Below are positions 4,442-44,217 of a stretch of DNA of 64,000 nucleotides, piece after piece. Where the stretch lies: positions 372,001-436,000 of the forward strand of contig JAFKAC010000044.1 of NCBI GenBank assembly GCA_025766275.1, read 5' to 3'. Source of the DNA: Lactarius indigo. Lineage: Eukaryota > Basidiomycota > Agaricomycetes > Russulales > Russulaceae. The notes under the pieces are model-generated. The model was not told the origin of the DNA and searched no databases. It worked only from the letters and a program-made list of their open reading frames with translations. Each line of letters begins with the position of its first letter. The stretch's first letter is position 1. The position numbers and the translations under genes were made by a program.

Positions 4442-4462
4442 GGTGGCTAGTTCTGAGGTCGG

Positions 4463-4474
4463 TAGCTTTGGCTT
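4463..4474 (-). other. Element 1 primer-binding site (self-priming)
   Basis: The minus strand reads AAGCCAAAGCTA, one base after the LTR end. No TGG start, as expected for a tRNA-primed site, is present. The site complements the LTR sequence at 4683-4694. Confidence 0.75.
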
Positions 4475-4682
4475 ATGTCACGCCACTGCTGGGGCGTGCG
4501 TCGGGTCAGTCTGTAACAGGTCCTGCCTTAGGCAAAGGATACTGAGTTGGTCCGCTGCTGAGCAGAACGGCACCTAAGTCTGTGGGTGTTCCTTGATATA
4601 GCTCAAGGCAACAAGGCTTCAGAGAAGAGGACCGTGGTAGAGAAGAGAGGACTATGCTGAGGGACAAGACAGTAGATTGACG

Positions 4683-5401: not shown

Positions 5402-5620
5402 CTTCAATCGTCACGTCTTGTCTCTTTCTTCTCTTCACTTTCGTCTTTACTTTCGTCTTCGCTTTGTCGAGCCTCTGTCACAAAGAGTGCTGTCGGAACC
5501 CTAGTGTCTGCGAACATCTAGAACCTGCCTTCGCGCCATACGTCCTACGACGTGATTAGCTAAGTCGAACGGTCGCCTTATCCAGCTCAAGTCGAGCTAA
5601 CGTCGTGACGGCGTTACATT

Positions 5621-5634
5621 AAGACCAAGATAGC
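5621..5634 (+). other. Element 2 primer-binding site (self-priming)
   Basis: AAGACCAAGATAGC lies two bases after the LTR and pairs with 5388-5401. It does not begin with the TGG of tRNA-primed sites. The gag frame's GTG codon follows four bases later. Confidence 0.82.
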
Positions 5635-5638
5635 CATT

Positions 5639-7633
5639 GTGGCGACCACCATCAATACCAGAGAACAGTGGACGAGATTCCGTCCCTATCATCTAGAACG
5701 AAGAGGAGATCGTAACGTACCGACCCGATTCTTAGGAGCGGCCAGGTGGAGAGATCGAGGAGACGAAACTGGGTATTTCGTGGAATTCGACGGACCTACG
5801 AGGTTTAGACCTGTTGAGTTCAATTTCGACCACCTGTGCTGGGTGGAAATTACTTGGAATCCTATAGACCATCGCTGGGACGTCATTAGGCCAGCAGGAA
5901 GACAATACCAGTGCGACATTGACGCACGCGAACTCAATTCGCGAGCAGACTGGGGACCCATCGACGGTCAACTACGAGAACATTCTACCGGAGAAGCGGT
6001 CAGCGAAGAAACTGAAGAGGAAGAACAAAGCGAGGGAGGGCAACCCGCGAGTGTCGGACCTATTGAACAGTATACCATCCAACAAGCTGAGTCCCTGCAT
6101 ATCTCGGACCAGCCAGAAGTCATTCACGTACGATCGCCAGCAGCAGAAATGGCAACCACCACCATGACGACCGAAGAAGTCATGACCCTCAGAGAACAAG
6201 CGGCGCGAGAAGCGGCCGAAGCAATCAGACGAGAATCACAGCAAAACCTTATGCCCATCAATCCTGAAACCGGACACCGCATGACTGCAGACGACGCAGC
6301 AATCTTCCGAGCCATTGGGCCTGATCAAGGAGACCCCCCATCAGGAGAAGGAGGAAGACGAGGAATGCCATTAGACCCTCCGCCAGGATGGGGAGGGCCA
6401 CCCGGAGATGACTTCCCTCGACGCTCCGGAAGAGGAGGAAACCCGCCTGACCTCCCAAACAACCCGCCAGAAGGGGGACCCCCAGGAGGAGGTGGGGGCG
6501 GCGGTGGTGGGGGGGCAGGAGGAGGAGGACATGGATACGAGAAATTAACCGGTGAACCACCCACAATTTTTGACGGAGACCGCACTAAAGTAGACTCATT
6601 CCTCACGCAATGGCACGTGTACTGGGGGATGAATCTCGACACCCCCGTCATGCGCAACGACTATCGACGATGTCTGCTCTTCCTATCCTACATCAAGGGG
6701 GTATCCGTCAGCGAATGGGTACTCTCCTATCTCAAATGGCTTAATCGACAAATACAACGAGGAATAGATCAACATACGCGGGAACTGTGGAATGCAGTGG
6801 CGGAAGGGTTTAACCAAAGGTTCGTCAATACCCTTGAACGAGAACAGGCTCAAGCCCTCCTGAGGAAAGGCCTCAAGATGACCGATGGGGACATCGATAA
6901 ATACGTCAACGAATTCGAGGAGGCGACCAGAAAAGCAGGCTATCGCCTCAATGACCCACAAACCATCGACCTATTCACAAAAGGACTCCCCAAGAAATTA
7001 TACGAGAAGACTTACGACCTGGACGAACCGGAGACCTTCGACGAATGGAAACGGGCAGCGCTTCGTCGTCAGAAAAACTATATCCATATCAGGGCCAGGG
7101 TGGATGAGTACAAGGACAACAAACCAAAGAAGACGGGCAACGCCGGATGGAGTGTCCCGCAGAATCTCGCCAATCCTTGGGCGATGGACACATCTGCTGA
7201 TCGAACAAGGGCAAGACTAGCGGGTTCAGAAGAGATCGATTACGGCAAACCGCCGTATACCACTTTACCCCCATTTCCGCCGCGCGGCGGCCCCGGGGCT
7301 AGAGGACGCGGAAGAGGAGGAATGCGACGAGATCTCAGGACAGTCCTGTGTTACAACTGTAATGCGCCAGGACATCTCTCACGAAATTGCCCCCATCCAC
7401 GACAGCCGCGACAATGGCGACCGCAAGAACCCGGGCCGTCTACCGTCCGAATGACGGAGACCGACTACTACGCGCAGGAGACGCCACCTGCCCAAATACA
7501 AGCTGCTTCGACCAGCAAAACGGCGGAGGAACGAGCCAAGGAATGGCTCACGGGGGTAGCTAACGCCCCTGACGAAGTAAAGGACTTGATACTACAGGAT
7601 TTGTGGGGGAAAGAGGGTTTTCGGAGCGCCTGA
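5639..7633 (+). CDS. gag: Element 2 gag, capsid/nucleocapsid
   Basis: This frame of 664 codons encodes Gag. A disordered acidic stretch (about residues 115-160) and a Pro/Gly-rich segment (about 225-300, including a long glycine run) precede a capsid-like helical region (about 300-510). One CCHC knuckle (CYNCNAPGHLSRNCP) follows near residue 570. The frame starts at GTG at 5639. No in-frame ATG exists between the TGA at the LTR edge and about residue 170, yet the N-terminal part matches element 1 Gag. Initiation is therefore probably at a non-AUG codon, or on an RNA form not evident here. The 3' end overlaps pol, which is in the -1 frame. Confidence 0.9.
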   Translation: MATTINTREQWTRFRPYHLERRGDRNVPTRFLGAARWRDRGDETGYFVEFDGPTRFRPVEFNFDHLCWVEITWNPIDHRWDVIRPAGRQYQCDIDARELNSRADWGPIDGQLREHSTGEAVSEETEEEEQSEGGQPASVGPIEQYTIQQAESLHISDQPEVIHVRSPAAEMATTTMTTEEVMTLREQAAREAAEAIRRESQQNLMPINPETGHRMTADDAAIFRAIGPDQGDPPSGEGGRRGMPLDPPPGWGGPPGDDFPRRSGRGGNPPDLPNNPPEGGPPGGGGGGGGGGAGGGGHGYEKLTGEPPTIFDGDRTKVDSFLTQWHVYWGMNLDTPVMRNDYRRCLLFLSYIKGVSVSEWVLSYLKWLNRQIQRGIDQHTRELWNAVAEGFNQRFVNTLEREQAQALLRKGLKMTDGDIDKYVNEFEEATRKAGYRLNDPQTIDLFTKGLPKKLYEKTYDLDEPETFDEWKRAALRRQKNYIHIRARVDEYKDNKPKKTGNAGWSVPQNLANPWAMDTSADRTRARLAGSEEIDYGKPPYTTLPPFPPRGGPGARGRGRGGMRRDLRTVLCYNCNAPGHLSRNCPHPRQPRQWRPQEPGPSTVRMTETDYYAQETPPAQIQAASTSKTAEERAKEWLTGVANAPDEVKDLILQDLWGKEGFRSA

Positions 7634-10600
7634 ACCCATCGGCCTGGGTGAGGGCTTTAAATTGTAATTCTGTAATCATGACGCGCTTTCGTTCTCTTCG
7701 AATTCCAGTCTCGATTCGCACAAATTACCGAATGGCCGACATCAAAGCATTGGTTGACTCGGGGGCAACCGACAACTTCATCCACCCGAACTTCGTCAAA
7801 AAATTAGGCATCGGACTACAACTCCTGCCACAACCACGCAAAATCTGGAATATAGACAACACAGAAAACAAAGCTGGGTCTATCACCCACTTCACCGACC
7901 TTAACGTATACGCTAAGGGGTACCATAGAACCATGAGATTTCTCATAACCGACCTTGGTGGTGAGGACATCGTGCTAGGATACCCCTGGCTAGCCACCTA
8001 TGAACCTACCATCAACTGGCGAGATGCCGTAATACACGAGGAGGTCATGCCGGTCGTGATCAGCACACAGGACAGTCCCAGTCGTCGTACCATCATCGCG
8101 GCCACACTCACTGACGACGAAAAGGAGGCCATCGTTCTCGATATGGACGAAGAAAATACGTATTTGCGGGCAACTACGTCTACGGAGCTAGCAATCCGTG
8201 CCAAGGGGGAAGAAAACCCCGTAAAACTGCCAGCAGCATACAAAACCTTCGAAAGACTTTTCAGTGAGGAAGCGTCTCAGCGATTTCCTCCAGCAAGGCC
8301 CTGGGATCACGCGATAGACTTCAAGCCAGACACCCCTTCCGCAATCGACTGCAAGATATACCCATTAACACAAGAAGAGGAAGGGAAACTCAAGGAATTC
8401 CTGGATGAAAAACTCCAGCAAGGATACCTGCGACCTTCCATCTCCCCGTACGCGTCCTCATTCTTCTTTGTTAAAAAGAAAGACGGAAAACTACGCCCGG
8501 TGCAGGACTACCGGGTCATCAACTCGCATACTATACGCAATCAATATCCACTCCCCCTTATCCAAGACCTCATTTACGACCTCAGCAACGCCCATATCTA
8601 TACAAAACTCGACATTCGCTGGGGATACAACAACGTCCGCATACGAGACGGAGATCAAGAGAAGGCGGCCTTTAAGACCAAATTCGGGCTCTTCGAGCCA
8701 ACGGTCATGTTCTTTGGCCTTACGAACTCACCGGCCACCTTTCAGACCATGATGAACCACATCTATCGCGACACCATTGCTAAGCATGAACTGAAAGGGA
8801 CGGTTATCCGGGTTTACATGGACGATATCGGGATCGCTACCCGTGAGGGCTCTACGATGGCTGACCATGTTGCTGCAGTAACGGACGTTCTCCGCGTCGC
8901 CCAAGACCACGACCTCTATTTCAAACTCGAAAAATGCCTATTTCATCAACCGCGGATGGATTACCTGGGGGTAATCCTTGAAAGGGGGGTAACACGTATG
9001 GACCCGGTAAAAGTTCGCGGTATTAGAGACTGGCCAACTCCGACCAAGGTCAGGGACGTACGATCTTTTCTGGGTTTTTGTAACTTTTACCGACTTTTCA
9101 TCCGCGGTTTCGCTACCCACGCACGCCCCTTAAACCGACTTACGAGGAAGGACGCAGAATGGAAGTGGACAGAAGACGAAGAACGCGCATTCGAAACCCT
9201 CAAACGCCTCGTCACCGAAGAACCGGTGTTAGCACACCCCAATCTACAGGATCAATTCGAATTGGAGGTCGACGCGTCAGGATTCGCAGTAGGTGCTGTA
9301 CTTCTACAAAAGAAAAGTGACGGTCGCAAGCACCCGATAGGGTATTATTCAGCCACGCTGAACGAAGCCGAACGCAATTACGACATTTACGACTTGGAAC
9401 TCTTGGCCATCGTCAAGGCGCTCAGACACTGGAGACCCCTGTTGGCAGGATCCCCGCACAAAATCAAGATATTCTCAGACCACCTCAACCTACAGTATTG
9501 GAAAACCCCGCAAAAGATCAGCCGACGGGTGGCCCGAGAGGTACTAGAACTAATGGAATATGATTTTGAGATCCATCACATCAAGGGGAAGAACAACGGA
9601 AGAGCGGATGCCCTGTCCAGACGACCAGATTACAACCAGGGAGAGGGAGACAACGAAGGTGTGGTAGTCTTACCTCCCGAAATATTCGTACGAGCCGCTA
9701 ACACTGCCCGTACGCTGGAAATACATCCGCTATTGCAAACGCCGAGACGACGGCAAGATCCAAGAAGTATCCAGACATGGGTCGACGCCCACCAACTCAA
9801 GGAGATAGACGGAGAGTGGTATAAAGACGGACGCTTGGTGATCACCGGGCCCATGTCCGCGTATAGGGCGATAATACACGACCATCACGACCTCCCCGTT
9901 CATGGACACCCGGGCATCAGCAGGACCCAACGAATAGTGGAGCGGCATTACTGGTGGCCGAGACTTCGCCGAGACGTGTACGAATATGTTACCGGATGTG
10001 CCGACTGTCAACGAAACAAGGTCAACACAAGACCAACGCACGCGCCATTGCACCCCATCACTGCAATAACGGACGCTCCCCCTTTCCACACCATCGCGTT
10101 GGACTTTATTACTAAATTACCCGTATCCCAGTCCTATGACAGTATTCTCACCGTAACAGATCACGATTGCAGCAAGGCGTCGATATTCATCCCGTGCAAC
10201 GAAGAAATTACGGCGGAAGAGACGGCTACCCTGTACATCCTTCACGTGTTCAGACGGTTCGGACTACCGCGCAAAATCATTAGCGATCGCGACCCGCGGT
10301 TCACGTCAAAGTTCACCAAAGAAGTCTGTCGAATCCTAGGCATCAAGCAGAATATCTCCACGGCGTATCATCCACGAACAGATGGACAGTCGGAGCGGAC
10401 CAATCAATGGCTAGAGCAATATCTGCGATTCTGGGCCAACGAGCGTCAAGATAACTGGGCGGCGTATCTCCCCATAGCAGAATTCGCTCACAACAATTGG
10501 CCCCATGAGCATACGAAGCAATCCCCTTTTATGCTGCTTATGGGTTACAACCCGATAGCGGATTGGACTGATAAGCCATCCCCTATTCCGCATGTCATCA

Positions 10601-12348
10601 CCAGACTCACACAGCTCAAAGAAGCACGGCAGTTGGCCCAGACTCTTATCAAGAAAGCCCAGGATAGCTGGGTGAAACACCGGAATACCCCGAAGTACCA
10701 GATCGGCGACCAAGTATGGTTAGAAGGAAAGCACCTTCGAACCAATCAGCCAACGGCAAAACTTGCGGCGCGACGCCACGGCCCCTTTAAGATAGTTCAG
10801 GTGATGTCCCCATACAATTATCGCCTCGAGCTTCCCACGCAGTGGAGCATCCACCCGGTGTTTCACATAGATCTTCTCACGCCGTACAAAAATACGACCA
10901 TGCACGGTGAAAATTTCCCCCGACCGCCACCGGATCTCGTGGATGGAGAGGAAGAATACGAAGTCGAGGCTGTCCTGGACTCACGGCATTTCGGCCGCCG
11001 TAAGAAACTCCAATACCTCATCAAATGGAAAGGATATCCGGACTCGGAGAACCAGTGGGTCGATAAGAATGACGTCTTCGCCCCGGAAGCAGTAGAAGCG
11101 TATCAAGCGGCCCGAACAGCCACACGAAGACTTAAAAGCGAGACCGTGGAGGGTCAAGGAGAGTATCACTCCTACCTACGGTCCACTTCTACGTCTATGC
11201 CCACCTCTCCTCTCAGACATGTCACCACGGCGATCCTCCTCGACCAAGTCGCACAAGACGCCGCCGCCATCATCCAAGACGACGAAGAAACCGTGGTTCC
11301 AGCGGTCCAACTCACTCCGTACACACCTGCAGACATGCGAACGGGGCATATCACCGCTCAAGAATGGGCTGGCATCCTACAGAGGTTCCCAGACCCCACG
11401 CGCCAGCCCAGCGACGAGCAGCATGCCGTCGCTCACATCTTCCGAGACGACAGCGGGGCCCGCGAACCCGTCGCGATCATCCCCCCAGACGACGCTCTTA
11501 TCGGTACTAGGGGAGTTTTCCCGGCCGATCGATCTAACGAGGGACCAGGAGGAGCTGGAGGCGGAGGAGGCCTGGCGGAAGACGGCTCAGGAGTGGGCCA
11601 GAGAACAGTTGAGGTTAGCGCAGGAGAAATTGAGCGAGTTGCGGCGGCGCAGGCAGCGATGCCGGACCAAGCTGACCTTGACGACGGAGATTACTACCCG
11701 GTCAGCCACCCCCTCCTTCGAACGAACCGCGACTCTGCTGATCCCGGAATCACTCCGTGGCTCTTGCACACCGACGGAACCCCCATGTCTCGAGGACGTG
11801 TGCGACTGCCCGGCGTCGCATTACACACCCCCATCACGCGAGACGACGACCCGGCGCAGGTCCTTGCGCCTGAAGGGTTCCGGGCGAATCGACAGCCCCA
11901 TCACATTCACTTCCCCATCACCGGGCCGGACGGAGTAGAGCTGCAGGCCAGTCACGTACAGGTTGTCGGAGGTGCGAACCCTTTCGTCCTGGGAGTAATC
12001 CCGGGATCCCCTTACCTCTACGGCAAACCCCTCTATGCTACCCCCCGTCTCTCGGCTGCGAATCGCGCCTTCATCGCTCACGAGGATCTTGTGATTCTCG
12101 CCGCCGACAAACTCACGGACCGCGCACTTAACCGCATAGGGGATGAGTCCCTGGTTGCGGAGGTGACGCGGTATCGCGCTGCAGCCCACGAGGAGTCGCG
12201 CCTACAAGCGCGTATCCGCCAACTTCGTGGGATGGTGCTCGCCGCCCGGGAAGACAAGATGGACTGTGTGTACCGCTTGGAGCGGGCGGACGTATTCCGA
12301 CGTATTGAAGACGAACAGCATGAGTGGATCGCGAGGGACTTCCAGTGA
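7603..12348 (+). CDS. pol: Element 2 pol polyprotein with chromodomain and long C-terminal extension
   Basis: The frame is open for 1,581 codons. An aspartic protease motif DSGATDNF is near residue 52. The reverse transcriptase has YMDD near residue 406. RNase H shows DASGFAVGAVL and YDIYDLEL near 560-600. The integrase zinc finger (H-H-C-C) lies near 755-810, followed by the D-D-E core (LDFITK, SDRDPRF, DGQSERTN) near 830-935, a GPY/F-type segment (ARRHGPFKIV), and a chromodomain (EYEVEAVLDSR to YLIKWKGYP) near 1110-1165. About 410 further residues with no recognised domain follow. The frame opens before the gag stop in the -1 register, so expression as Gag-Pol by frameshifting is likely. 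The first ATG is at 7678. No disabling change is seen. Confidence 0.96.
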   Translation: MGERGFSERLNPSAWVRALNCNSVIMTRFRSLRIPVSIRTNYRMADIKALVDSGATDNFIHPNFVKKLGIGLQLLPQPRKIWNIDNTENKAGSITHFTDLNVYAKGYHRTMRFLITDLGGEDIVLGYPWLATYEPTINWRDAVIHEEVMPVVISTQDSPSRRTIIAATLTDDEKEAIVLDMDEENTYLRATTSTELAIRAKGEENPVKLPAAYKTFERLFSEEASQRFPPARPWDHAIDFKPDTPSAIDCKIYPLTQEEEGKLKEFLDEKLQQGYLRPSISPYASSFFFVKKKDGKLRPVQDYRVINSHTIRNQYPLPLIQDLIYDLSNAHIYTKLDIRWGYNNVRIRDGDQEKAAFKTKFGLFEPTVMFFGLTNSPATFQTMMNHIYRDTIAKHELKGTVIRVYMDDIGIATREGSTMADHVAAVTDVLRVAQDHDLYFKLEKCLFHQPRMDYLGVILERGVTRMDPVKVRGIRDWPTPTKVRDVRSFLGFCNFYRLFIRGFATHARPLNRLTRKDAEWKWTEDEERAFETLKRLVTEEPVLAHPNLQDQFELEVDASGFAVGAVLLQKKSDGRKHPIGYYSATLNEAERNYDIYDLELLAIVKALRHWRPLLAGSPHKIKIFSDHLNLQYWKTPQKISRRVAREVLELMEYDFEIHHIKGKNNGRADALSRRPDYNQGEGDNEGVVVLPPEIFVRAANTARTLEIHPLLQTPRRRQDPRSIQTWVDAHQLKEIDGEWYKDGRLVITGPMSAYRAIIHDHHDLPVHGHPGISRTQRIVERHYWWPRLRRDVYEYVTGCADCQRNKVNTRPTHAPLHPITAITDAPPFHTIALDFITKLPVSQSYDSILTVTDHDCSKASIFIPCNEEITAEETATLYILHVFRRFGLPRKIISDRDPRFTSKFTKEVCRILGIKQNISTAYHPRTDGQSERTNQWLEQYLRFWANERQDNWAAYLPIAEFAHNNWPHEHTKQSPFMLLMGYNPIADWTDKPSPIPHVITRLTQLKEARQLAQTLIKKAQDSWVKHRNTPKYQIGDQVWLEGKHLRTNQPTAKLAARRHGPFKIVQVMSPYNYRLELPTQWSIHPVFHIDLLTPYKNTTMHGENFPRPPPDLVDGEEEYEVEAVLDSRHFGRRKKLQYLIKWKGYPDSENQWVDKNDVFAPEAVEAYQAARTATRRLKSETVEGQGEYHSYLRSTSTSMPTSPLRHVTTAILLDQVAQDAAAIIQDDEETVVPAVQLTPYTPADMRTGHITAQEWAGILQRFPDPTRQPSDEQHAVAHIFRDDSGAREPVAIIPPDDALIGTRGVFPADRSNEGPGGAGGGGGLAEDGSGVGQRTVEVSAGEIERVAAAQAAMPDQADLDDGDYYPVSHPLLRTNRDSADPGITPWLLHTDGTPMSRGRVRLPGVALHTPITRDDDPAQVLAPEGFRANRQPHHIHFPITGPDGVELQASHVQVVGGANPFVLGVIPGSPYLYGKPLYATPRLSAANRAFIAHEDLVILAADKLTDRALNRIGDESLVAEVTRYRAAAHEESRLQARIRQLRGMVLAAREDKMDCVYRLERADVFRRIEDEQHEWIARDFQ
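7615..7621 (+). promoter_or_regulatory. Putative -1 frameshift heptamer between gag and pol
   Basis: In the gag frame the bases read G GGT TTT, which fits the X XXY YYZ slippery consensus. It lies four codons before the gag stop. Slippage by -1 moves ribosomes from gag directly into the pol frame. No downstream pseudoknot was tested. Confidence 0.6.
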
Positions 12349-19248: not shown

Positions 19249-19550
19249 TGTGTATCGGTAAGCACAAAGAAGTCGACAATATGGAGGGTAACGGACAAGG
19301 CTGTATTGTACGGGGACCGGACAAATGATTGGGGGTAGACACAGTCCAGGACATCAAGTTCGATTGTATACATCATACATGGCAAAACTAGTACACAATT
19401 CCTGGACAATTCAATAATAGATCTACATATCTTCCATGCTGTGTTCCCCGACTCCAAGAATTAGATAAGCTTGCATGGGAATACCGATTGCCAAAATGGG
19501 GGGAACCAATGATCACGTCTATGTGCTTTCAATCAAAAACTGAGACTGTA

Positions 19551-22500
19551 CTAAAGGTTTGAGGAGATAATGTCTTGAAAGATTAAAAAATGAACGAACC
19601 AATCAGTGGACATAATAAAGGCTGTAAATGACTCATCGGAGTGCTCTTGAGAAGGTGCACTAAGGTGTTGTCGAATCTTTGAGTCAACATTTGCCTCCCG
19701 ATAGTCAGCCTCTGCGTGGATTAAAGCTGATTCAGGTAACATGGCTCGAAAACGTAAGAAAGTGGCATGCTTCAAGATGAGGATAACAGCTTGGACAAAA
19801 GTTAAATAGGCGCTAAAAATAATAAACGTGAAATACCAAAGATCAAATGATAACCGGCGCCAAGACCAGTCGAAATAAGCTAAAGAGATAAAAAATCATC
19901 AGCCAAGGATAGAAGAGTGTAATACGAAAAGAACACATTTTGAATGGTGGGAAGTGACATAATCTGCACTGCCTGATGGAAACGTGAGATTAGGTTCGGT
20001 GAAAATACAGAAAGCACTTACAAACTGGAGAACTAGCGGTGAACCCCAATAGTGAGCTAGAAAGAGAGCAGTCACACACATGCTAGTTGATCAGTGATGA
20101 ATAGGATCAACGAAGAGTCAAAGAAAAATATGGTTAACAGGTAAAAAAGCGCAGAAAGGTATACAACAACACACATCCTGAAAATTTGACGGCAGGGGTC
20201 ATCAGCAGGCTCGAAAAACAGCGACATATGGCAGACATTCACCAACTGGATAGCCGTGGATAGCTGTCATCAACAGACCTGAAAAACAGCGAAAAACGGT
20301 AGCCACTCACAGACTGGAGCCAAAGACAGCCATCGTCAGCAGGCTCGAAACACAGCGAGCCATGACAGCCACTCACTCCCTGGAAATCCGAGAACAGGCA
20401 TCATCAGCAGGCTCACAACCAGCGAGCCATGGCAGCTACTCACTTCCTGGAGAGCCGAGGATAGCCCTCATCAACAGTACCGAAACAAAGCGAACCGTGG
20501 CAGCCACTCACTATCTGAAAAGCAGAGGACAGCAGTTGTCAGCAGGCTCGAAACACAGAGAACCACAGCAGCTGCTCACTCTCTGGAGAGCCGAGAGCAG
20601 GCGTCATCAGCAGGCTCGCAACCAGCGAGCTATGGCAGACACTCACTTCCTGGAGAGCCGAGGATAACCATCGTCAGCAGACCCGAAACACAGTGAATCA
20701 TGACAGCCACTCACGAACTGGAGAGCGGAGGATAGTCTTCATCAGCAGACCCGAAACACACCGAACCACGACAGCAACTCACTGTCTGGAGAGCCGAGGA
20801 GAGCCGTCGTCAGCAGGCTCGAAAAACAGAGAACCATGGCAGCCACTCACTCTCTGGAGAGACGAGAACAGGCGTAATCATCAGGCTCGAAACCAGGGGG
20901 CCATGGCAGCCACTCACTTCCTGGAGAACCAAGGATAGCTGTCAGCAGCAGACCGGAAACAAAGCAAACCATGGCAGCCACTCACTCGCTAGAGAGCCGA
21001 GGACAGCCATCGTCAGCAGGCGCGAAACCAGCGAACTACGGCAGACACTCACATACTGGACAGCCAAGGACAGCCGTCGTCAGCAGGCTCGAAACAGTGA
21101 GCCATGGCAGCCACTCACATCCTGGACAGCCAAGGATGGCCATCGTCAGCAGACCCGAAACACAGTGAATCATGACAGCCACTCACTTGCTAGAGAGCCA
21201 AAGACAGCCATCGTCAGCAGGCCTGAAACCAGCGAACCACAGCAGCCACTCACTTCCTGGAGAGCCCGGGACCACCGTCATAAGCAGGCTGGAAACAGTG
21301 AGCCACAGGCAGCCACTCACACCCTGGCATGCCGAGGACAGCCGTCGTCAGCAGACGCGAAACACAGCGAACCGTGGCAGCCACTCACTCTCTGGAGAGC
21401 CAAGGACTGCCATCGTCAGCACGCTCGAAACCAACGAACCATGGCAGCCACCCACTCCCTGGAAAGCCGAAGACAGCCGTCGTCAGCAGGCTCGAAACCA
21501 GTGAGCCACGGCAGCAACTCACGAACTGGAGAGCCGAGGACAGTCATCGTCAGCAGGCTCGAAATATAGCGAGCCAGAGCAGCCACTCACGAACTGGAGA
21601 GCCCAGGACAGACGTTGTCAGCAGGCTCGAGACCAGCGAACCACGGTAGCCACTCACTTCCTGGAGAGCCGAGGATAGCCGTCGTCGGCCGACCCAAAAC
21701 AGGCAAACAATGGCAGCCACTCACTTGCTAGAGAGCCAAGGACAGCCGTCATCAGCAGGCTTGAAACCAGCGAACCATGGCAGCCACTCACATACTGGAC
21801 AGCCGAGGACAGCCATCGTCAGCAGGCTGGAAACAGTGAGCCACGGCAGCCACTCACTCTCTGGAGAGTAAAAGACAGCCGACTTCAGCATGCTGGAAAC
21901 TAGTGAGCCACGGCAGCCACTCACGAACTGGAGAGCCCAGGACAGCCGTCATCAGCAAGCTTGAAACCCAGAGAACCATCGCAGCCACTCACGAACTGGA
22001 GTGCCCAGGAAAGCTGTCATCAGCAGGCTCAAAACCAGCGAGCCACGGTAGCCACTAACATCCTGGACAGTCGAGGACAGCCGCCGTCAACAGACCCTCA
22101 ACACACCAAATCATGGCAGCCACTCACTGCCTAGAGAGCCAAGGACAGCCGTCGTCAGTGGGCCCGAAACCAGCGAACAACGGCAGACACTCACATACTG
22201 GACAGCCAAGGACAGCCGTCGTCAGCAGGCTGAAAAAAGTGAGCCACGGCAGCCACTCACTCTCTGGACAACCGAGGACAGCCATTGTCAGTAGACCCAA
22301 AACACAGCAAACCATGGCAGCCACTCACTCTCTGGAGAGCCAAGGAGAGCCGTCGTCAGCAGGCTCAGAACACAGCGACACATGGCAGTCACTCACTCCC
22401 TGGACAGCCGAAGACAACCGTCGTCAGCACGCTCGAACCAGCGAGCCGTGGTAACCACTCACGTCCTGGACAGCCGAGGATAACTGTCGTCAGCAGGTTC

Positions 22501-25500
22501 GAAACACAGCGAGAAATAGCAGCCACTCACTTCCTGGAGAGCCAAGGACAGTCTTCGTCAGCAGTCTCGAAACACAGCGAACCACCGCAGTCACTCACTC
22601 TCTGAACAGCCGAGAGGACAGCCGTCGTCAGCATGCTGGAAACAGTGAGCCACGGCATCCACTCACTCTCTGGAGAGCCGAGGACAGCTGCCATCAGCAG
22701 GCTGGAAACAGTAAGCCACGGCAGCCACTCACCAACTGGAGAGCAAGGACAGCCATCGTCAGCAGGCTCTAAACACAGCGACACACGGCCGTCACTCACT
22801 CTCTGAAGAGCCGAAGACAGCCGTCATCAGCAGGCTCGAAACAGTGAGTCACAGCAGCCACCCACTCCCTAGAGAGCCGAGGACAGCTGTCGTCAGCAGA
22901 CCCGAAACACAGCAAACCTTGGCAGCCACTCACGAACTTGAGAGCAGAGGACAGCCATCATCAGCAGGCTCAAAATACAGCGACACATGGCAGTCACTCA
23001 CGAACTGGAAAGCCAAAGACAGTCGTCATCAGCACGCTCGAAACCAGCGAGCCAAGGCAGCCACTCACTTCCTGGAGAGCCCAGGACAGCCGTCGTTAGC
23101 AGACTCAAAACCAGCAAGTCGCGATAACTGCTCACATCCTGGACAGCCGAGAATAGCTATCGTCAGCAGGCCCGAAACACAACAACACACGGCAGCCACT
23201 TACACACTGGCATGTCGAGGAGAGCCATCTTTAGCAGGCTCGAAACACAGCGATACACGGTAGCCACTCACATCCTGGCATGCCAAGGACAGCCGTCGTC
23301 AGCAGGCTTAAAATTAGCGAGCCACGGCAGCTCACAAACTGGAGAGCCGAGCACAGGCGCCGTAAGCAGGCTAGACATCAGCGAGCAACGGCAACCACTC
23401 ACTGTCTGGAGAGCCAAGGACAGCCATCGTCAGCAGACCCAAAATACAGCGAACCATGGCAGCCACTTACGAACTGGAGGGCCAACGACAGCCATCGTCA
23501 GCAGGCTTGAAACACAGCGACACATGGCATTCACTCACGAACTGGACAGCCAACGACATCCGTTGTCAGCAGAGCCGAAACACAGCGAACCATGGAAGCC
23601 ACTCACTCCCTGGAGAGCCAAGGACAGCCGTCGTCAGCAGGCTCGAAACAAACGAACCACGGCAGCCACTCACCAACTGGAGAGCCGAGGACAACTGTTG
23701 TCAGCAGGTTCGAGACACAGCGACACACGACAGCCACTCACATCCTGGCATGCCGAGAACCATCTTCAGCAGGCTCGAAACACAGCGATACACGGCAGCC
23801 ACTCACATCCTGGCGTGCCCAGGACAGCCGCCGTCAGCACGCTCGAAACCAGCGAGCTACGGCAGCCACTCACGAACTGGAGAGCCGAGGACAGCTGTCA
23901 TCAGCAGACCCGAAACACAGCAAACCACGGCAGCCACTTACCAACTGAAGGGCCAAGGACAGCCGTGGTCAGCACGCTCGAAACGCAGCGATACACGGCA
24001 GCCACTCACGAACTGGAGAGCCAAAGACAGCCGTCGTCAGCACGCTCGAAACCAGCGAGCCACGGCAGCCACTCACGAGCTGGACAGCCGAGGACAGCCG
24101 TCGTCAGCAGGCCCGAAACCAGCAAGCCGCGGTAACCACTCACATCCTGGACAGCCAAGGATAGCTATCGTCAGCAGGCTCGAACAACAGCAACACACGG
24201 CAGCCACTCACATCCTGACATGCCGAGGAGAGCCATCTTCAGCAAGCTCGAAATACAGCGATACACGGTAGCCACTCACATCCTGGCGTGCCGAGGACAG
24301 TCGTCATCAGCACGCTCGAAACCAGTTAGCCACGGCACCCACTCACCAACTGGAGAGCCGAGGACAGCTGTCGTCAGCACGCTCAAAATACAGCGACACA
24401 TGGCAGTCACTCACAGTCTGGACAGCCGAGGACAGCCGTCGTCAGCACGCTCGAAACACAGCACCACATGGCAGCCACTCACCCTCTGGAGAGTTGAGGA
24501 CAGCTATCGTCGACAGGCTCGAAACACAGAGAGCCATAGCAACTACTCACAATCTGCAGTCCAGTGCACAAACATGGTCAGGTTGGTAGATCTCGAAACT
24601 GTGAGTAAGAGCTCACACTCACCAACTAGTAGTTACGCGGTATCAAGGATTATGAATTCTGGGCCACAATTTGCTGTAACACTTTATCGATACTTACCCA
24701 GATGTACGGAAACGGTAAAAGACATTCCCGGACTATTTCTTTGATCCCCACGTCATCATGGGAACGGGTACTGCAATGCTCCTTGTCATCGTCGCTCACG
24801 TTGCCCTTCCATTGGCATACTCACCGCTTCAAAGCTGCTGTAACACTCAATTCTAAGTTACCTCTTTGCACGGTCAACAGCATCAATCCGATGATGTCAT
24901 CATTCAAAGCTGCAGCTGTCGTCTCAATAAGCTTATCGCAGCCCATACTTTGCTTGTGCATTTCTGCCCAAAACCGTTAGCACGTAACTCGCTATTTGCC
25001 TCTCAACTCACTTTCTAATCGCACGAATCTAACATTATCATCAAGGGCACATAGGTAGTGCTCCTGGAATTGTTTCTCCGCCACATCAGGCACATTGTCA
25101 TCTGGGCTTCCGAAATCCTCCACATAGATTTGGACATTTCGTAGGAATTGATCATACTTTGTAAACAAGACGACAACAGGCACTGAAAACTTTCTTAATA
25201 CAGTCACGAACGTCAGTAATGACGCACCATTCCCATCAGGACAGATGTCCTTGAAAAACCTCAGATCGAGCTCCGGTCGTTGGTTGTCCATTGGGACGCA
25301 GTACCTCAAAATAGTATGACTGTCAGTTGGCGCAATTGTGAACACTCGAGAGTCCAAACCATATCGCATGCAATCTGTCTCGAAGTCGGGTTTCTCCACA
25401 CTTGCGTCGAATAAATTCGTTCAAAATGCCGAGTTCCTCTCTACTACCCGACTCAATACCGCAAGAGTCGTGGAAAACGTAGCCCTTATGATTGGAAAAC

Positions 25501-26525
25501 ACGAGTTCATCGTCGATCGTGTGCTCGCCTCGCTAACTCCATGTTTAGAGGCAACCAAAGAGAAGCACTATTATCACTAACATCCATGGACGGGTCGAGT
25601 CTAACCTGATCGGAAGTGAGATCACATTCACCGACGAAAAGGTTGAGCCACGTACCTCCTCGCTTCCTCGGTAAATGGCGGGGCTCTCTGTCGTATCACA
25701 TATTCTCTGCAGGATCGAAGTCTTTCCCGCATTTGCCCTTCCTATAATAAGCACCCGGAACTGGACTGTTGGAATTTGACGACGATATTGCGGGATGATG
25801 GTATTTGAGAAGGTGGGCCGAGGGCCAAGAACGCGAGTGACGCTTGCCAACTATAGGAGGAATTAAACAGCTTCCTGGCGCCAGGTAACAACCAAAGACC
25901 CACGGGTTTAGGTTTCTCGTACACAAAAGTCACGGCAACGCGCCGGTTGATATCTGTGAAGCCTCTCAGCATGAAGCGGACGGTACTAGGAGCAAGACAT
26001 CACCACCTTCAAGACAGACAACATTGTCGTCTCCAGACTTGTCTGGCTTAAACTTGACCGAAATGTCGGCAGCCATTATTTTGAAACCCGCTCGCTGGAT
26101 GGTCAACGTAGCACTGGTGTGGGTCCTAACATGGCTGTCCGATAGAAATTAGTATTCGATGGTAAGGTAAAACACGGCCAATGAAACGAACATGTCGGGT
26201 TTCCATAGAACAGGGGCATCGTTCTTGAATTTTTTAGACATGTATTTGACACCGGCATCGTCCTTGAAAACGAGCTCTAGGTCGGATGTAGGATATTTCT
26301 CGATAAAATCGATAGATATTTCTACGCGAAAATCAACCCTGCTCATAAGAAATGGTAGGTCTCATATACCTTTCAAATAAATATATCTGTACGCGAACAG
26401 GTCAGCCTATGCTTACGTGGAAGCTGTTCGACTAACTGAGCTTGGTCGCCCATATCAGTTGCAGATCGCGAACTCGATCCCATCCCAAAATATGATAAAT
26501 TTGGCTTTCTAGGCCTTGGTGCCAT
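19551..26525 (-). CDS. P-loop GTPase gene with an array of one-codon microexons (gene 1)
   Basis: Exons (minus strand) for the GTPase are: P-loop exon ending 25656 (FRVLIIGRANAGKTS); 25605-25582; 25532-25360 (G3, FHDSCG); 25304-25228; 25182-25012 (G4, FTKYDQF); 24963-24825; 24770-24698, which ends in phase 0 on FPYIW. Every junction has GT-AG and keeps frame, and the same junctions fit gene 2 and the gene at 59.6 kb. Then come 67 three-base exons (24625 to 20175) and a TTT exon (20024-20022). A phase-0 exon follows (AVQIMSLPTIQN, about 19950), then a C-terminal frame ending at 19551 with a possible membrane segment. N-terminal exons, possibly from ATG 26525, encode beta-rich segments (TVRFMLRGFTDINRR); their joining is uncertain. 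The GTPase core is confident, the ends less so. Confidence 0.75.
20022..24700 (-). repeat. Microexon-intron tandem array 1: 67 units of about 68 bp plus terminal unit
   Basis: Each unit on the minus strand reads acceptor YAG, three bases, then donor GTGAGT (variants GTAAGT, GTGGGT, GTTAGT, GTGAAT, GTGTGT). A GCTGAC or yTRAy-like branch site follows, about 24 nt before the next AG. The three exonic bases run through 20-odd different codons, mostly GAT, TTC, AGA, GAA, TTG and GGA, and never a stop. Spacers vary (about 64-66 nt) while the exon is always 3 nt. The codon before the array (TGG, 24700-24698) ends a phase-0 exon. Confidence 0.8.
24992..25850 (-). other. GTPase domain of gene 1
   Basis: This is the core of the GTP-binding domain of gene 1. 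It shows G1 GRANAGKTS, a G3-type DSCG in the phrase YVFHDSCGIESG, and G4 TKYD in VVLFTKYDQFLRN. Family members of this type occur in large numbers in Rhizoctonia-like fungi as uncharacterised G-domain proteins. The nearest known families are AIG1/HSR1-like and Toc-like GTPases; membership in one of them is not certain. Confidence 0.85.
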
Positions 26526-26929: not shown

Positions 26930-27680
26930 ATCCGTCTGGCTCAAAACTCGAAAAGGATCTAGGTGCCCCCCTCCCCCCCCTTGCCTGCCGATCTCAGGGT
27001 AAGCAATGCAGAGAAATCACCATCCCCTCTATCTTGCTCGCCAACCCGGACACTGATTACCTTTTCCCAGTCTCTACCGCGTAACACATGTCGTGAAGAC
27101 GCAACGACCTCAAGCCCAGATTCTTGTCGCTCGTGTAGCCAGCGGCTTTCCCCTCCATGCGCAATGCCCTATCTGTTGCATCGGAGCTAGGACCTCCCAG
27201 GAGCGCCAACACGAAGGAATACTGTAGTTGTGGTAGCCATTCTACACCCATGAGCTCGCCACGGGATTTCTCGTGCCTGACGCCCACGGTCCGATTGGGT
27301 TTCGCAGCTGGCCAGTCGAAGATGTCCGGGCACGAGGCGGAGGGAAAGCGGTTCGGTTCGGGCTTGATTGGTACGTGCTTTGCGCCTCTCATCAGCCCTT
27401 CTCTCTCGAATTCTCGGATAGACCTGGTGCCGTGTGAGAAATCACATACCCGATTGGAGCTCCTCCGCCCCATGACCCTAACGTTACGCCCCCGCTTCCC
27501 GACCCGATACCAGCACACGAATTTCCCTTGGCACTGCACCAGCGCACTCCTCCGCCTTTCCATGGTATACAGGCCAAGCGGGGGCACGTTCGAACTGGTT
27601 CCGGTGGACAGCGATCAAGCCGATCAGATTGGGCGAAATTTGTTTTCGGCGCAATACAGTAATTTCTCGATGATCTGATC
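26930..27680 (+). pseudogene. Decayed nucleolar-GTPase-family fragment, copy 2
   Basis: It begins with a CTCAAAACTCGAAAAGGATC phrase shared with the copies at 17.8, 31.0 and 48.3 kb. It has the GGCACGAGGCGGAGGGAAAG segment that in other copies leads into LNKI. A 173-codon open frame (27157-27678) is present, but no GTPase motif survives in one frame. Confidence 0.45.
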
Positions 27681-34997: not shown

Positions 34998-37900
34998 TTA
35001 TCTTAACAAATATAAGAACAAACAAACCAAATCAGTGGCCATAATAAAGGCTGCAAACGACTCGTCGGAATGCTCTTGAGAAGGTGCAGTAAGGTGTTGT
35101 CGAATCTTCAAATCAACATTTGCCTTGCAATATTCAGTGCCCACGTCAGTTAAAGCTGATTCAGGTGACGTGTTTGAGAGACATAAGAAAGTCGCGTGCT
35201 TCAAGATAAGGATAACCGCTATTACAAAAAGTTAAATAGGCGCTAAAAATAATAATGCGAAATACCGAGGATCAAATGATAACCTGCGCCAAGACCAGTG
35301 GCAGTAAGCTAGAAAGATAAAAAATCGTAAGCCAGGGGTAGATGAGTGTCATACAAAGAGAACACGTTTTGAATGGCGGGAAGTGACATAATTCGCACCA
35401 CCTGACGGACAGGTGAGATTTTTGATTGAGGGAACACACAGAGAGCACGTACAAACTGGAGAACTAAAGGTGAACGCCGTTAGCAGGCCGGAATGGGGAA
35501 CATGCACGCACGTGCTAGTTGATCAGGGACGAGGATGATGAATGGCAGAGCCCGAGTCAAAGACAGGAATGATCAACTTGCAAAATATGCAGAAAGGCAA
35601 ACAGAAACTCACGTCCTGAGGATCCGAGGGCGAGAGTCGTCAGCAGGTGCGATACACAGCGACATATGACAGCCACTCACTCTCTGGAGAGCCGAGGAGA
35701 ACTGTCATCAGCAGGCTCGAAACATCGGGAGCCATGGCAGCCACTCACAAACTGGACAGCCGAGGACAGCCGTCGTCAGCAGGCTCGAAGAACAGCGAAC
35801 CATGGCAGCCACTCACATCCTGGAGAGCCGAGGACAGCCGTAGTCAGCAAGCTCGAAGAACAGTGAACCACAGCGGCCACTCACATCCTGGAGAGCCGGG
35901 GACAGCCATCGTCAGCAGGCTCAAAGAACAGCAACACAAAGCAGCCACTCACTGCCTGGACAGCCGAGGACAGCAATCATCAGCAGGCTTGAAACACAGC
36001 GACACACAGCAGCCACTCACTTGCTAGAAAGCCAAGGACAGCCGTCGTCAGCAGGCTCGAAACACAGCGACACATATCAGCTACTCACCAGCTGGAGAGT
36101 AGAGGGCTGCCATTGTCAGCAGACTCGAAATACAGCGACAGACAGCAGCCACGCACTTCCTGGACAGCCGAGAACAGCCATCGTCAGCAGGCTCTAAACA
36201 CAACGATACACATCAGCTACTGACCGGCTGGAGAGCCGAGGGCAACCATCGTCAGCAGGCTTGAAATACAGGGACACACACCAGCCACTTACCCACTGGA
36301 GAGCCGAGGATACCCATCGTCAGCAGGCTCGAAACACAGCGACACACACCAGCCACTTACCCACTGGAGAGCCAAGGACAGGCATCGTCAGCAGGCCCGA
36401 AACACAGAGACACACAACAGCCACTCACTCCCTGAAGAGCCAAGGACAGCTGTAGTCAGCAGGCTCGAAACATAGGGAGCCATGGCAGCCACTCACAAAC
36501 TGGAGACCCCAGGATGGCCATCGTCAGCAGGTTCGAAACGCAGTGAGCCATGGCAGACACTTACAAACTGGAGAACCGAGGACAGGCATAGTCAGCAGGC
36601 TCAAAACACAGCGACACACAGCAGCCACTCACCACCTGGACAGCCGAGGACAGCTGTCGTCAGCAGGCTCAAAACACAGCGATACATAGCAGCCACTTAC
36701 TTCCTGGACAGCCGAGGACAGCCATTGTCAGCAGGCTCGAAACACAGTGAACCACGGTGGCCACTTACATCCTGGAGAGCCAAGGACAGCCGTCGTCAGA
36801 AGGCTCGAAATACAGTGAACCACAGTAGCCACTCACATCCTAAAGAGTCAAGGACAGCCGTCGTCAGCAGGCTCGAAACACAGCGACACAAAGCAGCCAC
36901 TCACCAACTGGAGAGCCGAGGACAACTGTCGTCAGCAGGCTCGAAACACAGCGACATACAGTAGCACTCACATCCTGGACAGCCGAGGACAGGCACCGTC
37001 AGCAGGCTCGAAACACAGCGAGCCACGGCAGCCACTTACCAACTGGAGAGCCGAGGACAAGCATCGTCAGCAGACTCGAAACACAGCGACACACAGCGGC
37101 CACTCACATCCTGGAGAGCCGAGGACAGCCGTCGTCAGCAGGCTCAAAACACAGCGACACATAGCAACCACTCACATCCTGGACAGCCGAGTACAGCCGT
37201 TGTCAGCAGGCTCAAAACACAATGAGCCACGGCAGCCACTTACCAACTGGAGAGCCGAGGACAGGCATTGTCAGCAAGCTCGACACATAGCGACACACAG
37301 CACACACTCACTTGCTGGAGAGCCGAGGACGGGTGTCATCAGCACGCTCAAAACTGTGGGTAAGGGCTAACACTCACCCACTAGTAGTTAAGTGGCGTCA
37401 AAGATCATGAATCCTTCACCACAAGTTATAATATTATTAATACTTACCCAGATGCGTGGAAACGACCTAAGACATTCCCGAATTACATCTTCGACTTTGG
37501 TGCTATTGTACGAACGGACACTGTAATGCTTGTTATTATCGACGTTCACTTTGCTCCTTCATTTGGCACACTCACCGCTTCAAAGCTGATTTAACACTCA
37601 ATTCTAAGTTACCCCTTTGCACCGCCAAAAGCATCAATCCGACGATGTCATCATTCAATGCTGCAGCTGTCGTCTCAATAAGCTTATCGCAGCCTATATT
37701 TTGCTTGTGCATTTCTTCCCAAAAGCGTTAGCACTGATTCCATATTTGCATTCAACTCACTTTCTAATCGCACGAATCTAACACCATCATCGAGGGCGCG
37801 CAGGTAGTGCTCTTCAAATTGTTTCTTCGCCACATCAGATATATTGTCATCCGGGCTTCCGAAATCCTCCACATGAATTTGGACATTTCGTAGGAATTGA

Positions 37901-39096
37901 TCATATTTTGTAAATACAGCAATGACAGGGACTGAAAACGATTTTATTCATAGTCACGAACATCCGTAATGACGCACCATTTCCGTCAGGACAGATGTTC
38001 TTGAAAAACTTCAGATCGAGTTGTGGTCGTTGGTTGTCCATTGGGACACAGTACCTTAAAATAATATGATCGTCAGTTGGCGTAGTCGTGAACACTCGAG
38101 AGTTCAAACCATATTGCATGCAATCTGTTTCGCAGTCGCCTTTCTCCACACTTGCGTCGAATGAACTCTTGCAGGACCATGAGTTCCTCGCCGCTACCAG
38201 ACTCAATACCGCAAGAGTCATGGAAAACGTAGCCCTTATGATTGGAGAACACGAGTTCGTCATCAATCCTGTGCTCGCCTCGCTAACTCCATGTTTAGAG
38301 GCAACCAAAGAGAAGCACTATTATCACTAACATCCATGGACGGGTCGAGTCTAACCTAATCGGAAGTGAGATCGCATTCACAGACGAAAAGGTTGGACTA
38401 CGTACCTCCTCCCTTCCTCGATAAATGACAGGGCTCTCTGTGGTTTCACATATTCTCTGAAGAATGGATGTCTTCCCCGCATTTGCCCTTCCTATAATAA
38501 GTACTCGGAACTGGACTTCTGGAATTCGACGACGGTGTTGCTTGATGACGGTGTTTGAGAAGGTGGGCCAAGGGCCAAGAACGCGAGTGGCCCCTGCCAA
38601 CTATAGGAAGAGTTCAACGGCTTTCTGGCACCAGGGAATAACCAAATACACACGGGTTCAGGTTTCCCGTACACAAAAGTTACGGTAACGCGACGGTTGC
38701 TACTATCTGTGAAGCCTCTCAGTATGAGGTGGAGTGTACTAGGAACAAGAGATCCCCACCTTCCAGACTGGCGACCTCTGAGTCTCCGAGTATGTATGGC
38801 TCAAACTCAACCGAAATCTCAGCAACTTTTTTTTTGGAAAGCGCTCGCTGGATTATCAACGTAGCACTGGTGTAGGTCCTGACATGGCTGTGCAGAAAAA
38901 ATTAGCATTTGATGGTGAGGGAAAATACAACGAACATCATGGGCTTCCAGCAAACACGAGTGTCGTTCTTGAATTTGTTAGACTTGTATTTGACACCGGC
39001 ATTGTCCTTGAAAACGAGTTCGAGGTCGGATGTAGGACGTGTCCCGATAAAACCGATAGATATTTCTACGCAAATATCAATTTTGCTCAGGAACAA
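34998..39096 (-). CDS. P-loop GTPase gene with microexon array (gene 2), probably impaired at the 5' end
   Basis: This is a paralogue of gene 1 with the same exon pattern. The P-loop exon ends at 38406 (GRANAGKTS). The G3 exon is 38282-38110 and the G4 exon starts at 37931 (FTKYDQF). The last large exon ends at 37448 on FPRIW, phase 0. The microexon array follows (27 units), then TTT (35455-35453), and a phase-0 exon with IMSLPAIQN (about 35385). The C-terminal frame ends at 34998 (compare gene 1: KIRQHLTAPSQEHSDESF). Compared with gene 1, the sequence around the proposed ATG is deleted and the first donor GTAAGC is changed to TTAAGA. One extra T near 35240 shifts the C-terminal frame. It may be a pseudogene, or may start elsewhere. 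Confidence 0.65.
35453..37450 (-). repeat. Microexon-intron tandem array 2: 27 units plus terminal unit
   Basis: Same unit design as array 1. All 27 exonic triplets are sense codons (GAT and GAC 8, TTG 3, TTT 3, TGG 3, GAA 2, CAA 2, and single AGA, GCA, CTG, CCG, GGA, GTG). Donors include GTGAGT, GTAAGT, GTGCGT and GTCAGT; every unit keeps GT and AG. The order of codons does not match array 1. Confidence 0.8.
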
Positions 39097-39649: not shown

Positions 39650-40400
39650 TCCGTCTGGCTCAAAACTCGAAAAGGATCTAGGTGCCCCCCTCCCCCCCCC
39701 TTGCCTGCCGATCTCAGGGTAAGCAATGCAGAGAAATCACCATCCCCTCTATCTTGCTCGCCGACCCGGACACTGATCACTTTTTCCCAGTCTCCACCGC
39801 GTAACCTGCGTCGTGAAGACGCAACGACCTCAAGCCCAGATTCTTGTCGCTCGTGTAGCTAGCGGCTTTCCCCTCCATGCGCAATGCCCTATCTGTTGCG
39901 TCGGAGCTAGGACCTCCCAGGAGCGCCAACACGAAGGAATACTGTAGTTGTGGTAGCCATTCTACATCCATGAGCTCGCCACGGGATTTCTCGTGCCTGA
40001 CGCCCACGGTCCGATTGGATTTCGCAGCTGGCCAGTCGAAGATGTCCGGGCACGAGGTGGAGGGAAAGCGGTTCGGTTCGGGCTTGATTGGTACGTGCTT
40101 TGCGCCTCCAATCAGCCCTTCTCTCTCGAATTCTCGGATAGACCTGGTGCCGCGTGAGAAATCACATACCCGATTGGAGCTCCTCCGCCCCATGACCCTA
40201 ACGTTACGCCCCCGCTTCCCGACCCGATACCAGCACACGAATTTCCCTTGGCACTGCACCAGCGCACTCCTCCGCCTTTCCATGGTATACAGGCCAAGCG
40301 GGGGCACGTTCGAACTGGTTCCGGTGGACAGCGATCAAGCCGATCAGATTGGGCGAAATTTGTTTTCGGCGCAATACAGTAATTTCTCAATGATCTGATC
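39650..40400 (+). pseudogene. Decayed nucleolar-GTPase-family fragment, copy 4
   Basis: Near-identical to the copy at 26930-27680, including a 173-codon frame at 39877-40398. No intact GTPase motif is visible. Confidence 0.45.
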
Positions 40401-42641: not shown

Positions 42642-43023
42642 CCACTTGGCCTGATTGATTGATTAAGGTGTCCTTGTGCGCTTTATGAATTTAATTTTTT
42701 TGTTTTGTTTTTTTTGGAAAGCAGTGGGGTGAGTTCGTATCGGGCCGGGCCGCAGCGCGGCGAAATGCTAAGTCGATAGATAATTATGGAGCTTGGCCCC
42801 TTCATGTTCGCCCCACGCATTCGCCTTGCTGCTGCCTCGCTCTCTTGCCTCTCACCGACCCCCACCGCCCTCTCACTCCCTCAACAATTCTGTGGTGATT
42901 AAATTAGAGCAGTGACGAGGCTGAGAAGTGGAGAGAGAGAAGCAGCAGGTGAGTAAGATCTCTGCCCTGGTTTCGGTGTCTGACTACGTCTTGTATTCTT
43001 CCAACGCACGTCAACGAGCCACG

Positions 43024-43310
43024 TTCACTACGACTTCGCTGGCCCAGGTCCATATCCCACCGTTGTTCTCTCATGACTCACCGCTGTTGCTGCACTGTCG
43101 CATTCACTACGAGTTCGCTGGCCCAGGTCCATACCCCACCGTTGTTCTCTCATGACTTACCTCTGTCACTGCACTGTCGCGTTCGCCACGACTTCGCTGG
43201 CCCAGGTCCATACCCCACCATTGTTCTCTCACGACTCACCGCTGCCGCTGCACTGTCGCGTTCACTACGAGTTCGCTGGCCCAGGTCCATACCCCACCGT
43301 TGTTCTCCCA
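43024..43310 (+). repeat. Tandem repeat of about 78 bp, four copies, within the MULE
   Basis: Four copies of a unit containing TTCGCTGGCCCAGGTCCATA and CACCGTTGTTCTC. No protein is recognised. Confidence 0.8.
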
Positions 43311-43536: not shown

Positions 43537-43890
43537 GTACGTGACACATTGCCTGGCAATCACGTACTTTTTAATCATCTCTTTCTAGTCTCTTTCGTTG
43601 CTCGTTCGATTCCCCTTCGAACCAGAGACCGCTCATGGTCATTTTACGTATGTGATACGCTGCCTGGTAATCACGTACTCTTTAATTATCTTTTCCTTTT
43701 CTTTTCTAGTCTCTTTCGTCGTTTGCTGGACTCCCCTTCAAACCAAAGACCGCTCATGGTCAATTTGCGTACGTGACACGCTGCCTGGTAATCACGTACT
43801 CTCTAATTATCTCTTTCTCTTTCTTTTCTAGTCTCTTTTGTCGTTCGCTGGACTCCCCTTCAAACCAAAGACCGCTCACGGTCAATTTGC
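43537..43890 (+). repeat. Exon-intron tandem repeat within the MULE (three introns, 59-nt exons)
   Basis: Introns at 43537-43588 (52 nt), 43648-43709 (62 nt) and 43769-43831 (63 nt) each have GTACGTG or GTATGTG donors, a TTTAATYAT or CTCTAATTAT branch site and a TTTCTAG acceptor. The exons between and after them (43589-43647, 43710-43768, 43832-43890) are all exactly 59 nt and near-identical. After the last exon the donor is changed to ATCCGTG. No coding frame is recognised. Confidence 0.7.
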
Positions 43891-44217
43891 ATCCGTGACA
43901 CTTATATTACTTTACTCTTCGAGAGTTCATAGGACTTGGCGTACTATTGTTTATTCCATTATCTTTTCTTTTCTTTTTTCTTTGTGGGCTCACGGGACTT
44001 AGCGTACTATTGTTTATTCATGGGGAGCAGGGTCTTGTCGCATTATGCCCACGCTTGTCTCATCCCGTACAAGTAACTTACGTGTCGTTCACCGTGTGCC
44101 GTGTTATGAGTCAAGTAATTTCAGCCGCGGGTATATTTATGACTAAAAATATGTCGGAGAACATCCGGCACATAAGGAAGTATACTGTATTACTTAAAAT
44201 TTGAGCCATGTGTTGTA

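Follow-up and report, generated by a model that had tools for sequence, protein, structure and literature searches.

Whether a 68-bp tandem repeat inside a fungal GTPase gene is ordinary intronic DNA or a succession of exons of one codon each is the question raised by a 64,000-nt stretch of the Lactarius indigo genome (contig C231:372001-436000 of a 90.3-Mb genome, its species identified through deposited proteins; this whole stretch is referred to below as the window). A sequence-only reading had placed an array of one-codon microexons after a GTPase domain, which holds, and had counted 67 of them, where 68 in-phase units are found. It is very probable that 68 consecutive one-codon exons are spliced here, inserting a hypervariable peptide of 68 residues between the GTPase domain and the C-terminus, and at least 31 further arrays of the genome share this layout. 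This reading draws on the anatomy of the array, the constraint on its units and their recurrence across the genome, all of which can be read from the DNA.

Structure of the Window Gene

The host gene model (26346-19532, minus strand) comprises 82 exons with AG/GT at every junction, and the spliced model is open through 559 codons. Its upstream part (24698..26346, minus strand) consists of exons 1-5 (26346-26192, 26134-26007, 25953-25904, 25850-25656, 25605-25582) and exons 6-10 (25532-25360, 25304-25228, 25182-25012, 24963-24825, 24770-24698), which encode an N-terminal beta-rich region and a GTPase domain with the P-loop GRANAGKT. The upstream exons match the deposited protein P0001 exactly. 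The likely start codon of the model is an in-frame ATG, while P0001 begins farther upstream and stops one base past exon 9, ahead of the array. The acceptor of exon 10, ending at 24771, is in frame and consistent with the deposited protein P0002.

The array (20022..24625, minus strand) comprises 68 predicted exons of one codon each, with small introns in between, and would encode the peptide LIRTLDDDLFLFDDLGFFTFDCDEFFGRLRREDGRRYADFFRYQEFFGRGEQDYRERTFERIEGSLDF. Its first unit, TTG, lies at 24625-24623 and its last, TTT, at 20024-20022. The introns are mostly of 65 nt, with 72 nt ahead of the first unit and 150 nt, loosely resembling the repeat, ahead of the last; a slot equivalent to this TTT, 150-157 nt past the repeat, occurs in 24 of the 32 arrays described below. 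The other introns of the gene measure 45-57 nt. The downstream part (19532..19972, minus strand) comprises exons 19972-19937 (AVQIMSLPTIQN), 19879-19837, 19789-19600 and 19550-19532. The third of these is a conserved C-terminal exon (ILKHATFL...FIMSTD) kept in paralogues; the last, immediately followed by a stop, is the least certain of the model. Phase 0 on both sides of the array, as read earlier, is found again: exon 10 ends with ...FPYIW at 24698, and the post-array exon opens with GCA GTG CAG ATT ATG at 19972.

Membership of the protein in the P-loop GTPases (TRAFAC class, MMR_HSR1-like) follows from its Walker A motif GRANAGKT and from an above-cut-off profile match. For the GTPase part (259 aa) Pfam places MMR_HSR1 (PF01926) first, with 23.2 bits against a cut-off of 21.9 (E=7.9e-5), and lists no NACHT or ANK domain. 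AlphaFold predicts the structure of P0001 with medium confidence (pLDDT 66), and the model bears a weak likeness to G-alpha and Ras-like GTPases; a sequence search against solved structures returned marginal GTPase hits only.

The Repeat Unit and Its Splice Signals

In each unit, read on the minus strand, the acceptor AG is followed by three bases, by the donor GT (as GTGAGT or a close variant) and by an intron mostly of 65 nt. A profile built from 46 seed units having AG and GT gave 1,154 hits, of which 1,137 exceeded the inclusion threshold and were aligned, AG or GT not being further demanded; the 17 hits below it were left unaligned. The acceptor AG and a slot of exactly 3 nt are present in 1,137 of 1,137 aligned units, the donor G in all and its T in 99.8%. 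Conservation falls as low as 51% in the remaining intron columns, and variability is highest in the three columns of the slot. A branch-like CTGAC has its A 24 nt upstream of the acceptor G. The unit composition reported earlier (acceptor, three bases, GTGAGT-type donor, branch site about 24 nt before the AG) is thus borne out by the 68 AG/NNN/GT units and by the profile. A strict unit pattern has 806 matches in the genome and its reversed counterpart none; a chance origin of the pattern is excluded.

The profile search was carried out on the window and on 44 of 47 genomic stretches read (about 250 kb). It yielded 1,502 non-redundant hits, 1,486 of them with an AG-NNN-G[T/C] junction; these slots were chosen for the junction, their content being unconstrained. 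No stop codon occurs in the 1,486 slots, against 173 expected from base frequencies. After collapse of the 32 arrays to 23 dissimilar clusters the count is 0 in 1,061 slots against 113.6 expected. The earlier claim that all triplets are sense codons holds for the window gene, open through all its units, and likewise for the units read elsewhere in the genome. Slot codon usage is strongly skewed to a few codons (GAA, AGA, GAT, TTG, TTC).

Thirty profile hits were called nonstandard. Nine of them have a complete junction whose donor context is reduced or deviates, 14 are truncated or on the opposite strand, and one arose by chance. The rest are two GC donors (in L014 and L015), a possible 6-nt slot (L053), an altered donor (L051) and, as the last two, lost acceptors in the dead gene copy L036.

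Arrays across the Genome

At least 32 arrays of 15-75 units each are present in the L. indigo genome, including two in the window. The units form 37 clusters, of which 32 hold at least 10 units and total 1,475 units. GTPase pieces lie upstream of each array, and the conserved C-terminal exon lies downstream of 32 out of 32, on the same strand and 227-390 nt away. Spacing analysis revealed no broken or absent unit within the 32 live arrays: internal gaps longer than 80 nt number two, both on contig C1, and are accounted for by one long intron and by one intact slot (CAA) missed by the profile.

The C-terminal exon occurs at 49 genomic places, 32 with arrays and four in dead copies, the other 13 lying outside the stretches read; similar C-termini are found in the deposited Lactarius proteins P0087, P0121 and P0122. 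In eight GTPase paralogues that lack array units (L037, L039-L045), the roughly 1 to 4 kb read past the GTPase contain no C-terminal exon belonging to the paralogue; L042 has a match on the opposite strand, which is part of an adjacent array gene. In three dead copies (L036, L055, L056) the C-terminal exon is interrupted by a stop, and a GTPase was not found in their stretches.

One array, L051 (contig C1:1970900-1976500), is very divergent: intron differences between its units amount to roughly 25 of 58 sites. It has a cysteine-rich codon run, yet keeps 3-nt slots without stops.

Probable Codon Exchange between Units

Per site, nearest-neighbour units differ by 40% within the slot and by 1.8% within the intron. 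Among L018, L019, L021 and L023 there are array pairs whose introns have changed little and in which many whole codons are swapped. For the pair L019/L018 intron divergence amounts to 0.28% per site, and 8 of 43 aligned slots differ, none of them synonymously and five of the eight by two or three bases. For the codons swapped in this pair, 10 of 16 look-ups led to a further unit that carries the same codon between identical flanks, and the other six led to one that differs at one of 58 flank sites; such units lie nearly always within L018 and L019 themselves. Hypermutation of the slot was considered and rejected, since units with the same codon and identical or near-identical flanks exist, and short-range recombination suffices for the swaps. 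The pattern fits short conversion or unequal exchange between units, which would always keep the frame, as each unit contains one codon.

Residue order in the array peptides is near random, a feature more in keeping with a variable surface than with a fixed fold. No clear periodicity was detected in the peptides (the strongest |z| was 2.2 among 30 tests).

Deposited Models and RNA-Like Records of Relatives

GTPase relatives were examined among deposited proteins (the best 120 of 800). The protein P0077 (291 aa, on a contig of 1,107 nt) is continuous across the sites of six L. indigo gene introns; there follow FPHIW, then LFEEEGDTFIE (11 array-like residues), then VSGCNGLI. The last string resembles the start of a unit intron, with 6 of 8 residues matching an L. 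indigo unit. The genomic equivalent of P0077 would need more than 1,700 nt by estimate, and the stretch from the P-loop to the first slot alone takes approximately 1,130-1,260 nt in genomic copies, so the 1,107-nt contig is too short for genomic DNA and is most likely RNA-derived. In P0069 (1,124 nt) FFFN is followed by one entire unit intron read through, 15 of whose 22 residues are like an L. indigo intron read-through. In these RNA-like contigs of relatives 11 (P0077) and four (P0069) units appear to be joined ahead of a retained intron. The array-like composition of the 11 residues of P0077 is found in 0.125% of random family windows and that of FFFN in 0.56%.

The L. quietus protein P0110 has an array-like stretch of 32 residues at the equivalent place, its composition being matched by 1 in 20,000 windows, in a sample to which P0110 itself may belong. 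At least four other species (L. hatsudake, L. sanguifluus, L. vividus and L. tabidus) have deposited models in which unit introns are translated (VSGCDASLRFEPADDACPRLSS and similar), so arrays of this unit are probably present across much of the genus Lactarius. Searches of deposited proteins with the C-terminus returned two and six hits, queries included, and no further clear spliced array; the viral collection contained no relatives of P0077.

Weighing of the Explanations

A coding role of the units is argued for by the fixed 3-nt slot, the absence of stops, the near-invariant AG/GT and phase 0 on both sides, together with the strict link to the conserved downstream exon and the loss of signals in dead gene copies only. 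Along with the RNA-like contigs of relatives, this supports the earlier claim that the cell splices the units, and their splicing and translation in L. indigo can be strongly inferred.

Tandem repeats are common in introns, and the array could be a 68-bp minisatellite within one ordinary long intron, carrying incidental splice-like motifs and removed in one step. The window gene indeed stays open in the spliced model if the whole array is skipped, and in P0087, a deposited model from L. tabidus, FPYIW is followed nearly at once by the downstream SLPAIQ exon. Such a repeat, however, should accumulate slot stops and length changes, whereas stops are absent from the full set of slots and from the dissimilar arrays alike, the slot columns are the most variable while AG and GT are nearly invariant, and P0077 and P0069 look spliced. 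With no stops, a fixed slot length and acceptors lost in dead copies only, a neutral intronic minisatellite was rejected and is highly improbable. Even less credence is given to the units being recursive (ratchet) splice sites of a very long intron, the three bases forming a noncoding spacer. An acceptor does adjoin a donor in every unit, but in known recursive splice sites AG and GT abut without a spacer, and a spacer needs neither sense codons nor hypervariability; the slot statistics led to rejection of this explanation as well.

A more serious competitor, though still rather unlikely, accepts that the units are spliced and translated and takes the peptide for a neutral or tolerated linker, with selection acting only on frame and absence of stops and no recognition role. 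The random-like residue order and the loss of identity between older array pairs are in its favor, while the strong codon bias and the maintenance of 32 live arrays with no unit broken speak against it. Single-base changes in close duplicates, mostly synonymous by a fragile count, also oppose it: of the 12 single-base slot changes counted over six close array pairs, 10 are synonymous, versus 30.5% expected (p=2.4e-4).

Several points weigh against the units being spliced and translated as one-codon exons. The synonymous excess is fragile, since trio events are partly double-counted, the multi-base codon changes TCT/GAA and AAA/TCG fall outside the count and a further nonsynonymous change, CAA/CGA, was dropped by the intron-similarity filter. 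With the six distant pairs added (all 12 pairs: 10 synonymous changes and 29 not, p=0.78) it is gone because whole codons are replaced there, and residue identity is not conserved over the long run. The units are mutually related, so that the 86-139 stops found in each of 5,000 within-array shuffles of the collapsed set (1,061 units) overstate the sample; by the harsher count of single-base steps from the nearest relative 7.7-13.1 stops are expected and none is seen. Acceptors are lost in 2, 1 and 1 units of the dead copies L036, L055 and L056, but these are copies of one another, so that only about two losses are independent, and L057, also dead (premature stops), retains its acceptors. P0110 may be an ab initio model, and the RNA nature of the P0077 and P0069 contigs is deduced from their length. 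Each of these two contigs closes with a retained intron, P0049 runs on into the first intron, and no simple series of joined units accounts for P0091; complete splicing of all units would go beyond these four records, which hint at partial splicing in the contigs of relatives. In L. indigo itself the basis is genomic sequence, from which splicing is deduced. The nine deposited models read in this species end before the array, at or in the first intron, or after one unit (P0080), and its annotation gives array splicing no support.

For the one-codon exons, splicing would probably proceed by intron definition, the small introns being removed one after another, because a fungal intron of about 4.7 kb is exceptional and 65 nt is near the 45-57 nt of the other introns of the gene. 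The introns could then serve as homology adaptors, through which unequal crossing-over or conversion would swap, add or delete exactly one codon with the frame kept. Skipping of any unit during splicing would also be frame-neutral. The outcome would be an inexpensive source of variant peptides carried by a nucleotide switch.

Second Array Gene and Other Window Features

The second array of the window (35453..37380, minus strand) is built of the same unit and has 28 slots including end units, in a paralogous gene. Its first slot, TGG, is at 37380, 26 profile units follow at 37314-35615 (QLDDLDLDDEVFFGWWPELQADDFRD), and the last slot, TTT, is at 35455. The upstream part of this second GTPase gene (37448..39090, minus strand) was located by genome search as tblastn pieces relative to array 2, and its conserved C-terminal exon lies at 35031..35219 (minus strand; C231:407031-407219). 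Near-identical open reading frames (ORFs), one upstream of each array gene, are situated at 27057-27614 and 39777-40334, and the block around the window arrays seems to have been duplicated as a unit; the first of these ORFs has no Pfam match. A further GTPase paralogue (L040, 59782-60549, plus strand) has no array units or C-terminal exon in the stretch read.

Elsewhere in the window a Ty3-type retroelement (5609-12348) includes a gag-like ORF and an ORF with reverse transcriptase, RNase H, integrase and chromodomain matches, and a second gag-like ORF lies at 2759-4477. ORFs with a MULE transposase domain (45981-46811) and a DUF6535 domain (53196-55640) and two other tandem repeats, of 79 and 121 bp (43022-43307 and 43582-43901), are also present.

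Comparison with Known Systems

The sequence-only reading knew of no gene with dozens of 3-nt exons. This has to be corrected: the NACHT-ANK genes of Tuber melanosporum are reported to contain tens of codon-sized 3-bp microexons and to undergo alternative splicing (PMC3689799, PMC4986451, PMC10197012). The kind is thus already known, and L. indigo adds another phylum and another protein family. Both systems concern an ectomycorrhizal fungus and an expanded gene family that encodes a nucleotide-binding domain and carries 3-bp exons, tens of them in a gene. In L. indigo 68 phase-0 units lie between conserved coding parts. The truffle genes are ascomycete NLRs with ankyrin repeats, whereas the L. 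indigo gene is not of this type: it comes from a basidiomycete and encodes an MMR_HSR1-like GTPase whose C-terminus is its own. Alternative splicing has been reported for the truffle, while the L. indigo arrays are known at the level of DNA.

Exons of other sizes or numbers characterize two further systems. Microexon genes (MEGs) of Schistosoma have symmetric exons of 6-36 bp, and their proteins, built largely from such tiny exons, are thought to vary through alternative splicing (PMC5825161). The L. indigo slots, in contrast, are of 3 nt (with the one possible 6-nt slot in L053), and their introns form a tandem repeat. Trichoderma Xlr2 likewise has a microexon in a filamentous fungus (PMC11121469), a single regulated one as opposed to an array. 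Searches of the open-licence literature turned up no previous description of long arrays of one-codon exons in a basidiomycete, in Lactarius or in a GTPase family.

The array peptide would most likely serve recognition, of self and nonself or of a partner, in line with proposals for the truffle NACHT-ANK genes with 3-bp microexons. It is a tentative possibility, held somewhat short of even belief, that the array acts as a codon shuffler, in which near-identical 65-nt introns used as homology handles would let recombination rearrange a receptor-like peptide codon by codon with the frame kept, and in which optional exon skipping could add to the variants obtained from a single gene; this would make up an antibody-like fungal diversity system independent of the truffle NLR case. 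A checkable route is offered here, since the introns could let recombination shuffle single codons without frameshift. If spliced, the 32 arrays of this genome hold about 1,475 exons of 3 nt, which put the lower size limit of exons to the test and suggest that such peptides are missed by gene annotation. Taken with the truffle report, they suggest that two distant ectomycorrhizal lineages reached the same trick on nucleotide-binding switch proteins.

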